Shown here: one piece after another, positions 41,369 to 47,757 of the stretch | Numbering within the stretch: position 1 is the stretch's first letter | Layout: each line of letters opens with the position of its first letter | Assembly: GCA_902568975.1 (NCBI GenBank) | Contig: CACFSO010000003.1 | Coordinates: forward strand, 1-64,000 | Source of the DNA: an uncultured Pelagibacteraceae bacterium | GTDB taxonomy: Bacteria; Pseudomonadota; Alphaproteobacteria; Pelagibacterales; Pelagibacteraceae | Reading direction: 5' to 3' | Length of the DNA stretch: 64,000 nucleotides | Position numbers and translations under genes: made by a program | Notes under the pieces: generated by a model | Databases searched by the model: none | What the model was told of the DNA's origin: nothing | What the model saw: the letters and a program-made list of their open reading frames with translations, nothing else

Positions 41369-42044
41369 TTTCCTTGAATTAAAAAATATATCTAAAATTT
41401 ATAAAAAGAAAAAAAATATAATAGTATTAAATAAAATTAATTTTAAATTTCAAAAAGGTAAAAGTTATTCAATTATTGGACCTTCTGGTTCAGGCAAATC
41501 TACTCTACTGAACCTATTGTCATTAATAGATTATCCTTCAAATGGAAATATTATAATTAATAATAAAATTATTAATTATAAAAATAAATCAGCTAATGAC
41601 ATAATTAGAGCCAAAAGAATAGGAATAGTTTACCAGGATAAAAACTTACTTTCTGATTTTACTGCTTTAGAGAATGTATATTTAGCTCGTTTGTCAGTTG
41701 ATACAAATAAAACAAAAGCTGTTTATGATGCAAAAAATATATTAAAAAAAATGGGACTCATGAGCAGACTTGAACATTACCCTTCAGAACTTTCTGGGGG
41801 CGAATCCCAAAGAGTTGCTATTTCAAGAGCTCTAATTAATTATCCAGAGATAATATTAGCTGATGAACCTACTGGAAATCTAGATTATAAAAATGCCAAG
41901 GATGTGTTTAAAAAACTATTAAATCTTAAAGAGAAAAATAGAATTATAATTTTTGCAACTCATAATAGATATTTTGCTAATATGGCTGATTGTAAAATTG
42001 AAATGATTGATGGTAATATAAAAATTACTAATGCAAAAATCTAA
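41361..42044 (+). CDS. lolD: lipoprotein-releasing ABC transporter ATP-binding protein
   Basis: Walker A 'GPSGSGKSTLLN', 'LSGGESQRVAISRALINYPEIILADEPTGNLD'. Confidence 0.92.
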   Translation: MNNFLELKNISKIYKKKKNIIVLNKINFKFQKGKSYSIIGPSGSGKSTLLNLLSLIDYPSNGNIIINNKIINYKNKSANDIIRAKRIGIVYQDKNLLSDFTALENVYLARLSVDTNKTKAVYDAKNILKKMGLMSRLEHYPSELSGGESQRVAISRALINYPEIILADEPTGNLDYKNAKDVFKKLLNLKEKNRIIIFATHNRYFANMADCKIEMIDGNIKITNAKI

Positions 42045-45000
42045 TTTTAAGGAATTTAGTCATTTTAAAATTCATACACAGTATTCAATATGTGAAGGAG
42101 CTATTAAAATTGACGAACTTAAAGATTTTTGTAAAAAGAATAAAATCAGATCTGTTGGTATATCTGATACTTCAAATCTTTGCGGTGTGCTAGAATTTTC
42201 AGAAAATATAGCGAAATCTGGAACACAACCCATTATAGGCACTCAAATTAATTTTAAATATAAAGATATTACTGGTCTATTACCATTAATAGCTTTAAAC
42301 GAAAACGGATATAAAAACTTAGTCGAACTTTCTTCTAAATCTTATTTAGAGAACAATAATTTAATCGAACCATATTGTGATTTAGAAAAATTAATTGAAA
42401 AGAAAAATGGTATAATTGTTTTATCAGGATCTATAAATGGATTAATTGGAAAACTATTCAATCATGACAGATTAAAAGAAATTGAGGAAATATATAATAT
42501 TTTAAGCTTAAATTTTAAAGATTATTTTTATATTGAAATACAAAGGCATGATGATGAAAATGAAAAAATTTTTGAAAATTTTAATTTAAAATTATCAAAA
42601 AATATTAAAATACCATTAATTGCATCCAACGAAGTATATTATTTAGATAAGAATATGCACGAAGCGCATGATGCATTGATCTGTATTGGCTCAAAGACAT
42701 ATTTAAACGACAAAAATAGAAAAAAGTTTTCAAACCAACATTATTTTAAGACAAACGATGAAATGGCTAAAATTTTTTCTGATATTCCTGAAGCTTTAGA
42801 AAATAATTATAATTTACCATTTAGATGCAATTTTAGACCAATACCTTCAAAGCCAGTTTTGCCAAATATTGGAATAGAAAAAGGAATTAATGCTAATGTT
42901 TTTTTAAAAAAAGAATCAGAGGAAGGTCTGATAAATAAGTTTATTAATATTTTTAATATAGAAAAAAAAGAATTAGAAACTGATGATTTATATAAAAAGT
43001 ATAAAACTAGATTAAGCCACGAGTTAAAAATAATTCATGAGATGAATTATTCAAGTTATTTTTTGATTGTGTCAGATTATATTAAATGGGCAAAAAAAAA
43101 TAAAATTCCCGTTGGTCCAGGGAGAGGATCAGGTGCTGGATCACTTGTTGCTTGGTGTATATCTATTACAGATCTTGATCCAATAAAATTTGATCTTATT
43201 TTTGAAAGATTTTTAAATCCTGATAGAATTTCAATGCCTGATTTTGATATTGATTTTTGTGAAGAAAAAAGAGATTTAGTTTTTGAATATTTAAATAAAA
43301 AGTATAAAGATAGTGTAGCTCATATTGCTACATTTGGAAAATTAAAAGCTAGAATGGTAGTAAGAGATGTGGGTAGAGTTTTGGGAATCCCATATGGATT
43401 TGTTGATAGCATATGCAAAATGATTCCTTTTGATCCTTCAAGACCGATGAGCCTTTCCGAGTGCATTAATATAGAACCCAGACTTCAAAAATTAATTAAG
43501 GAGGATAAAAGAGTTAAAAAATTAATAGATTTGTCATTAAAACTAGAGGGATTAAATAGAAATTTTGCAACTCATGCTGCCGGTGTTGTTATAGCTGATA
43601 AAAAACTAACAGAATCTGTTCCTCTTTATAAAGATAGCTCAGCTAATTTATTATTACCATCTACTCAATTTGATATGTATTCAGCTGAAAATGCTGGATT
43701 AATAAAATTTGATTTTTTAGGATTAAAAACCTTAACTACAATTAATAAAACACAAGATCTTGTAAATGAAACAAATAAAAACTTCAAAATAGAAAATATA
43801 GATTACGAAGATCAAAAAGTTTTTGAATTTCTTGCAACAGGAAAAACTATCGGCTTATTTCAACTAGAAAGTTCTGGCATGAGAGAAGCAATAATTAAAA
43901 TGCAACCAAATAGACTTGAAGATATAATTGCTTTAGTAGCTTTATATAGACCCGGACCTATGAGCAATATTCCAATCTACAATGATTGTAAACATGGTAA
44001 AAAAGAACCAGATTATCTTCATCCTAAACTCGAAAAAATTTTAAAACCTACTTATGGAGTAATTATTTATCAAGAACAAGTTATGCAAATTGCACAAACT
44101 CTCTCAGGTTTTACAGCAGGAGAAGCTGATATTTTAAGAAGAGCAATGGGAAAGAAAAAAAGAGCAGAATTAGAAAAGCAAAAGCAAAGTTTTATTGATG
44201 GTGCTGAAAAAAATGGAATAAGTAGAGATATAGCAGCAGGTATTTTTTTAAAAATTGAACCATTTGCAGAGTATGGATTTAATAAGAGCCATGCAGCGGC
44301 ATATGCAATTATAGCTTACCAAACTGCGTACTTAAAAACATATTATCCTCACGAATTTTTTGCAGCTTCAATGTCAATGGAGCTATCTAATCAAAAAAAA
44401 CTAAGTGAATTTTATGAAGAACTTAGAAGACTGAAAATTAATATTGTAAGACCAAATATTAATCAGTGTTATGAAAATTTTTATTCTGACGGTAAGAATT
44501 TTTATTATGCTTTAGGTGCATTGAAAAATGTGGGCTATGAGGCGATTTCTAACGTTATTAAAGAAAGAAAAAAAAATGGTATATTTAAAAATTTAAATGA
44601 TTTTATTTTAAGAGTTAATCCCAAAGATATTAATAAATTACAACTAGAAGGTTTAGTTAAAGCAGGATCTTTTGATGAAATTAACAATAATAGAAGATCA
44701 CTTTATGAGTCAATACCAAATATTATTACTAAATCTAAGAGCAATTTTGAAAATAAATTATTAAATCAAATAGATTTGTTTGAAAACGATAAAAACCAAG
44801 AAAATACAGATTATTTAGAAAAAGTTGATGACTGGATTATAGAAGAAAGACTTTCTAAAGAATTTGAAACTTTAGGTTTTTTTATATCAGATCATCCATT
44901 AAATCAATTTAAAGAAATATACAATTTGTATAAAATTATTGATTACCAATTATTTATTAATGATAATAAATTAGAAAAAGTCAATGTAGCTGCAACCGTT

Positions 45001-45450
45001 ATAAAAATCCAAGAAAAAAAAAGTCAAAGTGGAACTTCATATGCAATAGTCAAGTTTTCTGATTTAAGTACAGTTTTTGAATTGTTTATTTTTTCTGATG
45101 TTTTAGAAAATAATAGAAAAAACTTGGTAGTAGGAAATTCTATAATGATAACTTTGCTAAAAAATTTAGAAAATGATGAAAATAGATTTAAAAAAATTAA
45201 TGTTTTGAAAATTACATCTTTAAAAGATGTATTAAACAAACCTATTAACTCAGTTAAACTTTACTCTTTTGATATAAATAAAATTAAAGACGTAAAAAAG
45301 ATAATTTCAAAAGAAGGTAACACTAATGTTGAATTAATAGTAAAAAATGGAGATAAAAAACTTATTTTCAATTTAAGGGAAAAACGTTTAATTGATAAAA
45401 AACTATTAAATACATTGAAAAATCAAGGTATCTCTGCAATTATTGAGTAA
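42031..45450 (+). CDS. dnaE: DNA polymerase III subunit alpha
   Basis: 'PVGPGRGSGAGSLVAW', 'MPDFDIDFCEEKRD', 'YGFNKSHAAAYAIIAYQTAYLKTYYP'. Confidence 0.97.
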   Translation: MQKSNFKEFSHFKIHTQYSICEGAIKIDELKDFCKKNKIRSVGISDTSNLCGVLEFSENIAKSGTQPIIGTQINFKYKDITGLLPLIALNENGYKNLVELSSKSYLENNNLIEPYCDLEKLIEKKNGIIVLSGSINGLIGKLFNHDRLKEIEEIYNILSLNFKDYFYIEIQRHDDENEKIFENFNLKLSKNIKIPLIASNEVYYLDKNMHEAHDALICIGSKTYLNDKNRKKFSNQHYFKTNDEMAKIFSDIPEALENNYNLPFRCNFRPIPSKPVLPNIGIEKGINANVFLKKESEEGLINKFINIFNIEKKELETDDLYKKYKTRLSHELKIIHEMNYSSYFLIVSDYIKWAKKNKIPVGPGRGSGAGSLVAWCISITDLDPIKFDLIFERFLNPDRISMPDFDIDFCEEKRDLVFEYLNKKYKDSVAHIATFGKLKARMVVRDVGRVLGIPYGFVDSICKMIPFDPSRPMSLSECINIEPRLQKLIKEDKRVKKLIDLSLKLEGLNRNFATHAAGVVIADKKLTESVPLYKDSSANLLLPSTQFDMYSAENAGLIKFDFLGLKTLTTINKTQDLVNETNKNFKIENIDYEDQKVFEFLATGKTIGLFQLESSGMREAIIKMQPNRLEDIIALVALYRPGPMSNIPIYNDCKHGKKEPDYLHPKLEKILKPTYGVIIYQEQVMQIAQTLSGFTAGEADILRRAMGKKKRAELEKQKQSFIDGAEKNGISRDIAAGIFLKIEPFAEYGFNKSHAAAYAIIAYQTAYLKTYYPHEFFAASMSMELSNQKKLSEFYEELRRLKINIVRPNINQCYENFYSDGKNFYYALGALKNVGYEAISNVIKERKKNGIFKNLNDFILRVNPKDINKLQLEGLVKAGSFDEINNNRRSLYESIPNIITKSKSNFENKLLNQIDLFENDKNQENTDYLEKVDDWIIEERLSKEFETLGFFISDHPLNQFKEIYNLYKIIDYQLFINDNKLEKVNVAATVIKIQEKKSQSGTSYAIVKFSDLSTVFELFIFSDVLENNRKNLVVGNSIMITLLKNLENDENRFKKINVLKITSLKDVLNKPINSVKLYSFDINKIKDVKKIISKEGNTNVELIVKNGDKKLIFNLREKRLIDKKLLNTLKNQGISAIIE

Positions 45451-45505
45451 AAAAAAACTTGTTTTATTTATAAAAAATTTGTAAATACCAACTTAAATTA
45501 ATACG

Positions 45506-45570
45506 CACACAATTTTTGGTTTAACAGCCTCCGGTCCTTAATTGGAATGAATTGTGGTGGTTTAACCGGG
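45506..45570 (+). promoter_or_regulatory. Candidate structured rpsB leader RNA with possible pseudoknot at the ribosome-binding region
   Basis: Stem CACAATT (45508-45514)/AATTGTG (45550-45556); loop CCGGT (45531-45535) complementary to ACCGG (45565-45569), 8 nt before the rpsB ATG. Confidence 0.65.
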
Positions 45571-45577
45571 AAAAAAT

Positions 45578-46342
45578 ATGAAAATACCAACTTTAACAAT
45601 ACAGCAACTTTTAGAAGCAGGAGTACACCTTGGTCATAAAACATTAAGGTGGAATCCGAAAATGAAAAAATATATTTTTGGAAAAAGAGAATCAATACAT
45701 ATAATCGATTTAACACAAACTTTAGAGCTGACAAATTTAGCTTTAGAAAAAGTTTATAAAACTATAGCTAGTAGTGGAAAAATATTATTTATATCAACAA
45801 AAAAACAGGCAGCTGAATCTATAGCTGAATTAGCAAAAAACACTGGCCAATACTATGTTAATTACAGATGGCTAGGTGGCATGCTTACAAACTGGGGAAC
45901 TATATCTAATTCAATAAAAAAATTAAATAAACTTAATTTAGATTTATCCTCTGAAAATAGAGGTTTCACAAAAAAAGAATTGTTAAAAATGAGCATGCAA
46001 AGAGATAAATTACAAAGATCATTGGGAGGAATTTCTGAAATGAAAAAAATTCCTGATTTAGTATTTATTATAGATACAAACTATGAATCTTTAGCAATTA
46101 AGGAGTCTATAAAACTTGGAATTCCTATAATAGCAATTTTAGATACAAATTCTAATCCTGATAGAATTGACTTTCCGATACCAGGAAACGATGATGCTAG
46201 AAGATCAATTGATTTATACTGTAATTTACTAAATGAAACTATTACTAATGCAAAAAAAGAAATTTCAAAAGATGAAGAGGTTTCCATTAAAAAAAACGGT
46301 TCTAAACAAGAAGAAAAAAAAAAAGAAATTACAGAAAAATAA
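45578..46342 (+). CDS. rpsB: 30S ribosomal protein S2
   Basis: '[25 protein letters not shown]', '[13 protein letters not shown]'. Confidence 0.97.
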
Positions 46343-46354
46343 ATCTAAACTTAA

Positions 46355-47206
46355 ATGAGCGATTTAGAGAAAATCAAACAGTTAAGACAAATTACAGGTG
46401 CAGGCTTTAAAGATTGTAGCAATGCTTTAAAAGAGTCAAATAGCGAAATAAACAAGGCAGTTGAAATATTAAGAGTAAAAGGAATATCAAAAGCATCAAA
46501 AAAAATGTCTAGAGAGGCTAAAGAGGGCGTTATAGCTCTTACTGGAGATAGTATAAAAACTTCAGTTTTAGAAATAAATTGTGAAACTGATTTTGTAGCA
46601 AAAAATGAAGATTTTATAAATTTTGTAAGAAATTTAAGTGAATTAAATCACAATGTGTCATCGGATTTAAATAAATTACAAAGCTCTCAAATGAATAATG
46701 GTAAAACTGTAGAAGAAAATTTAGTTCATTTGATTTCTAAAATTGGTGAAAAAATTACTATTGGTAGATCTAAAACCATAAACATCAATGGATCAAAAAA
46801 TTTTTCTTATAAACATACTGTGGTCAAAGACAACCTGTCAAAACTCGCTGTGATTGTTTCTTTGGAATCAAGTGAAAAATCTGACAAATTTGATTTGTTT
46901 GGAAAACAATTATCTATGCATATAGCAGCATTAAATCCATTAGCTCTAGAGCCCAAGGATATTGATCAAGAGATTTTAAAAAAAGAGCAAGAATTAATAT
47001 CTGAAGAGTTAAAAAATCTTGGAAAACCAGAAGAAGTTGCAAAAAAAATTAGCATTGGTAAACTAAATAAATTCAAAGAGGAAAATAGCTTAATTTCTCA
47101 AGCTTGGGTTATGGAACCAAAAAAAAAAGTAAAGGATATAATAAAAGAATTAAATATTCCTGGATTAATTATAAAAGAATTTTACAGACTTAAAATAGGT
47201 GAATAA
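46355..47206 (+). CDS. tsf: elongation factor Ts
   Basis: '[21 protein letters not shown]', '[17 protein letters not shown]'. Confidence 0.97.
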
Positions 47207-47757
47207 TGTTTGATGATAAAATATATGATCAAAAAATGGGAAAAACATTCGAAGTTTTTACCAAAGAGCTTTCTTCCTTAAGAACAGGTAGAGCTAACGC
47301 AAATATGTTGGATTTGGTTAAGGTCGATGTTTATGGTCAAAAAATGCCAATTAATCAACTTGGCAGTATTACAACGCCTGAGGCAAGAATGATTAATATA
47401 CAGGTTTGGGATTTAAATAACGTTAGTTTAATTGACTCAGCAATAAAAAAATCAGAACTAGGTTTAAACCCACAAATTGATGGTCAATTAATTAGATTAC
47501 CTGTGCCTGATTTAAGTGAAGAACGAAGGAATGAAATAAAAAAATTGATAAAGACAATGGGTGAGAAATGTAAAGTTTCAATTAGAAATATTAGAAGAGA
47601 AGGTAATGATGAACTAAAAAAATTACTTAAAACTAAAGAAATAAGCGAAGATGAAGAAAAAAAATTTGAAAAAAAAATTCAATATTCAACCGATCAACAT
47701 ATTAATAAAGTAGACGAAAAAGTCATTTTAAAAGAAAAAGAAATAATGACAATATGA
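47206..47757 (+). CDS. frr: ribosome recycling factor
   Basis: 'ELSSLRTGRANANMLD', 'PEARMINIQVWD', 'RLPVPDLSEERR'. Confidence 0.97.
   Translation: MFDDKIYDQKMGKTFEVFTKELSSLRTGRANANMLDLVKVDVYGQKMPINQLGSITTPEARMINIQVWDLNNVSLIDSAIKKSELGLNPQIDGQLIRLPVPDLSEERRNEIKKLIKTMGEKCKVSIRNIRREGNDELKKLLKTKEISEDEEKKFEKKIQYSTDQHINKVDEKVILKEKEIMTI

Follow-up and report, generated by a model that had tools for sequence, protein, structure and literature searches.

In the 64,000-nucleotide stretch of Pelagibacteraceae DNA analysed here (the window), dnaE (42031–45450) and rpsB are separated by a gap of 127 nt (45451–45577), and the question raised by this locus is whether the gap encodes a structured RNA and, if so, what that RNA does. 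rpsB (45578–46342, + strand; TIGR01011, 311 bits) is the presumed target of regulation, and its product, ribosomal protein S2 (uS2), the likely repressor; the second gene of the operon, tsf, encodes elongation factor Ts (46355–47206, + strand; TIGR00116, 233 bits). All three genes were identified with NCBIfam models at scores over their cut-offs. A first-pass annotation of the sequence had proposed that CACAATT (45508–45514) pairs with AATTGTG (45550–45556), that CCGGT (45531–45535) pairs with ACCGG (45565–45569), and that the two helices form a pseudoknot immediately before rpsB. Reading the sequence back placed both pairings, the rpsB ATG (45578) and the 127-nt gap exactly where they had been claimed, with the motif directly upstream of rpsB.

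Taken on its own, the window sequence carries a mildly unusual signal. Among 5,000 dinucleotide shuffles of the 127-nt gap, 103 contained a comparable pseudoknot (7 bp plus 5 bp), and among 503 tiles cut from the window a single one held an equally good structure. Folding energy lends no support (z = -0.26): the minimum-energy fold is another hairpin, at -15.7 kcal/mol, versus -7.8 kcal/mol for the three helices of the leader (P1, P2 and P3, below) without the pseudoknot. For these reasons the case rests on comparison with related leaders. The comparative evidence for the predicted structure is decisive.

A search of Rfam returned a match to the whole of model RF01815 (rpsB) at 45504–45586 on the + strand (36.3 bits, E 2.7e-5). 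The leader is the rpsB motif that Meyer et al. described in 2009 (PMC2704228); its structure is real and was already known, as the first-pass annotation had guessed in suggesting a known Pelagibacter motif. In 'Candidatus Pelagibacter ubique' the motif is described from the dnaE–rpsB gap, 129 nt long there versus 127 nt in the window, and consists of a long P1, a P2 of 3 bp, a P3 of 2 bp, and a pseudoknot in which the P2–P3 joiner pairs with a segment after P1 (PMC2704228). The small genome, the similar gap length and the nearly identical motif all point to an origin very probably within SAR11 (Pelagibacterales). The same paper reports it from most Alphaproteobacteria and beyond, linked to rpsB across distant bacteria, and strain HIMB5 yielded it once more in a subsequent screen. 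The window leader has the same gene, the same intergenic position, P1, a 3-bp P2, a 2-bp P3 and a 5-bp pseudoknot; it differs from the published family in that its score of 36.3 bits falls below the Rfam gathering cut-off of 40 bits.

Aligned to the model and to its relatives, the leader reveals several parts that the first-pass annotation had lacked, namely a 3-bp extension of P1 past a bulged A, P2 and P3. All lie on the + strand. P1 is a 10-bp stem interrupted by that bulged A. Its outer part joins CGC (45504–45506) to GUG (45557–45559), following the Rfam alignment (((-((((((( and the relatives, in which the C-G pairs are retained in 26 of 26 leaders and the G-U pair in 24 of 26. The bulged A (45507) is specified by the Rfam consensus structure and is A in all 26 relatives. 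The inner part joins CACAAUU (45508–45514) to AAUUGUG (45550–45556). P2 pairs GGU (45518–45520) with GCC (45527–45529), a 3-bp helix as in P. ubique, which reads GGU/ACC in relatives. P3 is a hairpin (45536–45545) closed by two pairs, CC (45536–45537) with GG (45544–45545), again as in P. ubique; it is invariant in the family alignment and shows one compensatory pair in the sister-family alignment. Between P2 and P3 lies the joiner UCCGGU (45530–45535), which pairs with ACCGGG (45565–45570), the segment 3' of P1, and the core of this second strand ends 8 nt upstream of the rpsB start codon. The P1 extension, P2 and P3 together mean that the stem is capped by a three-way junction, with a pseudoknot in addition; the "classic pseudoknot" of the first-pass annotation is thus right as to both helices, and a plain H-type fold is not what they form.

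Conservation was assessed in 26 leaders from the family of the window and in 16 distinct leaders from its sister family, and more widely in 45 leaders from the order (the group so assigned by the genome search resource) and 85 from other Alphaproteobacteria. Across the 26 family leaders, four of the seven inner pairs of P1 have changed on both sides, and none of 500 shuffles reached the covariation score of the stem; pairings shifted along the stem score far lower, and the 16 sister-family leaders agree. The pseudoknot is paired in 100% of cells in both alignments and hardly varies. Being invariant in all 45 leaders of the order, it is uninformative there and draws its support from outside: CUGGU/ACCAG replaces CCGGU/ACCGG in seven leaders from five families, and UCGGU/ACCGA does so in one. 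With the two strands located independently in other Alphaproteobacteria, the key pair reads C/G in 47 leaders, T/A in 6, and C/A or T/G in none (Fisher p 4e-8, kinship ignored); one further leader has A/A, unpaired. Upstream sequence perfectly complementary to the 3' strand is present in 45 of 45 leaders of the order, where 0.9 are expected, and in 79 of 85 other Alphaproteobacterial leaders, where 10.8 are expected. Covariation thus exists in both helices, for P1 within the order and for the pseudoknot beyond it, and the structure passes the comparative check that the first-pass annotation had set for it.

The shortfall against RF01815 extends well past the window. The gathering cut-off is passed by 0 of 61 genomes of the order and by 74 of 289 genomes across the class, a loss of some three in four Alphaproteobacterial genomes. 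With a model derived from the leaders of the order, 39 of the 61 genomes give a hit, each at a single site. Since the gathering score is an annotation threshold and not a structural feature, we file the leader under the published motif and not, by Rfam's own rule, as a member of RF01815. Rfam types RF01815, a cis-acting leader, as 'Gene; sRNA'.

These comparisons bear directly on two other accounts of the structure. If the pairing were chance complementarity in an AT-rich gap, as the comparable pseudoknots in 2% of shuffled gaps might encourage one to think, then neither the covariation nor the conservation in 45 of 45 leaders of the order and 79 of 85 others would follow; that account is refuted, and we assign it a negligible probability. 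The minimum-energy hairpin, UUUUUGGUU with AACCGGGAAAAA, could instead be what the RNA actually forms, or could alternate with the pseudoknot as a second state in which the ribosome site is masked. It has the lowest predicted energy for the window sequence and, among close relatives, for a minority, but it pairs in 73% of cells across the 26 relatives, no better than shuffles and with no excess of covariation, and sister-family leaders fold mostly into P1. We consider it very unlikely.

Two further features of the loop region were considered and set aside. The direct repeat GGTTTAAC is present, with its second copy at 45559 as reported and its first at 45518, one base earlier than reported. 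Copy 1 comprises the P2 strand and its loop, and copy 2 is the conserved segment GGNNNAACCGG. The molecular (rRNA) mimicry proposed for the repeat does not hold up: among 26 relatives it occurs twice in this genome only. A CCUCC in the loop, entertained as a decoy of the anti-Shine-Dalgarno sequence in 16S rRNA, is likewise not conserved; ahead of UCCGGU the sister family has GCUG, and the sequence varies elsewhere.

What, then, does the leader do? Its structure, conservation, covariation and place before rpsB–tsf are directly established. From E. coli we infer S2 as the ligand and translational repression as the outcome: there, uS2 in surplus represses translation of rpsB–tsf via the 5' UTR, with bS1 helping and details called unclear in a 2024 review (PMC10931766). 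The E. coli leader, which Rfam matches as t44 (RF00127, the Gammaproteobacterial rpsB leader), has a P1-like stem, CACGTATC/GATACGTG; its pseudoknot, also of 5 bp and also preceding rpsB, is GGGGU/ACCCC, read directly in the sequence at the matching place. That pseudoknot ends 24 nt upstream of the AUG, with a GAGG in the intervening stretch, whereas CCGGU/ACCGG in the window ends 8 nt upstream of it, and the t44 model itself finds no match in positions 45000–46000 at E up to 10. By homology with E. coli, the most likely function is that of a translational operator for S2 on rpsB–tsf. The first-pass view of a pseudoknotted rpsB leader, probably an S2 autoregulatory site, accords with both the RF01815 match and the motif of Meyer et al. 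The leader very probably acts in cis on the rpsB–tsf mRNA as follows: S2 in excess of what 30S subunits take up would bind the knotted leader; the S2-bound pseudoknot would keep the region before the AUG closed; and rpsB, and tsf along with it, would be translated less.

A leader conserved for mRNA stability or for recruiting ribosomes, as an S1 site might do, would also account for a structure before rpsB, and the requirement of E. coli uS2 for bS1 in effective repression (PMC10931766) is in keeping with such a role. However, leaders in E. coli that share this architecture respond when S2 is given in trans (PMC2704228, PMC10931766) and the motif is tied to rpsB even in distant bacteria (PMC2704228), which makes this alternative improbable, if somewhat less so than the energy-predicted hairpin. 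Attenuation was rejected: no terminator-like hairpin or site was found in the leader, which argues against it and fits translational control.

The 3' strand of the pseudoknot ends 7–10 nt before the AUG in 45 of 45 leaders of the order; the same distance has a median of 17 nt (range 9–31) in 83 other Alphaproteobacteria, and is 24 nt in E. coli, counted from the sequence. Within the stretch between pseudoknot and AUG, leaders in the family of the window match the Shine-Dalgarno consensus over at most 3–4 nt, versus mostly 5–6 nt or longer in other Alphaproteobacteria. The E. coli operator is reported not to include the ribosome binding site (PMC10931766), so that simple occlusion is not the mechanism established for that species. 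The shorter spacing makes direct blocking of ribosome binding more plausible in the order than in E. coli, and from the spacing alone we infer that a closed pseudoknot would cover the ribosome landing site. Tentatively, and with rather less than even confidence, we suggest that the motif of the order is a compact variant with a pseudoknot strand in the landing site itself and no strong Shine-Dalgarno before the AUG, through which S2 might repress by direct occlusion, unlike in E. coli. A non-exhaustive search of the literature found no prior statement of this spacing argument for the order.

Two observations concern the surroundings of the leader. Just 5' of P1, at about 45478–45502, a TTGTAAATA/TTGTATTTA-like string is followed by an AT-rich TTAA stretch, an arrangement that recurs in many family leaders and may be a promoter, in which case transcripts would start near the foot of P1. 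Downstream, tsf is followed directly by frr (46355–47757 for the two), without pyrH (UMP kinase) between them. Neither the 37 genomes searched from the window's genus nor four single-contig genomes of the family that are complete or nearly so have an above-cut-off match to the pyrH model TIGR02075; pyrH is present in 19 of 24 sister-family genomes, and lies near rpsB–tsf in most of those searched. A search for a substitute with a UMP/CMP-kinase model gave matches only below cut-off.

The analysis confirms a published ribosomal-protein leader in a further genome, very probably of the same marine lineage, and adds covariation of its pseudoknot across Alphaproteobacteria. In practical terms, the RF01815 cut-off misses the leaders of this order. 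These same compact leaders would provide a clean test case for S2 repression by simple occlusion; for E. coli, the 2024 review describes that mechanism as unclear.
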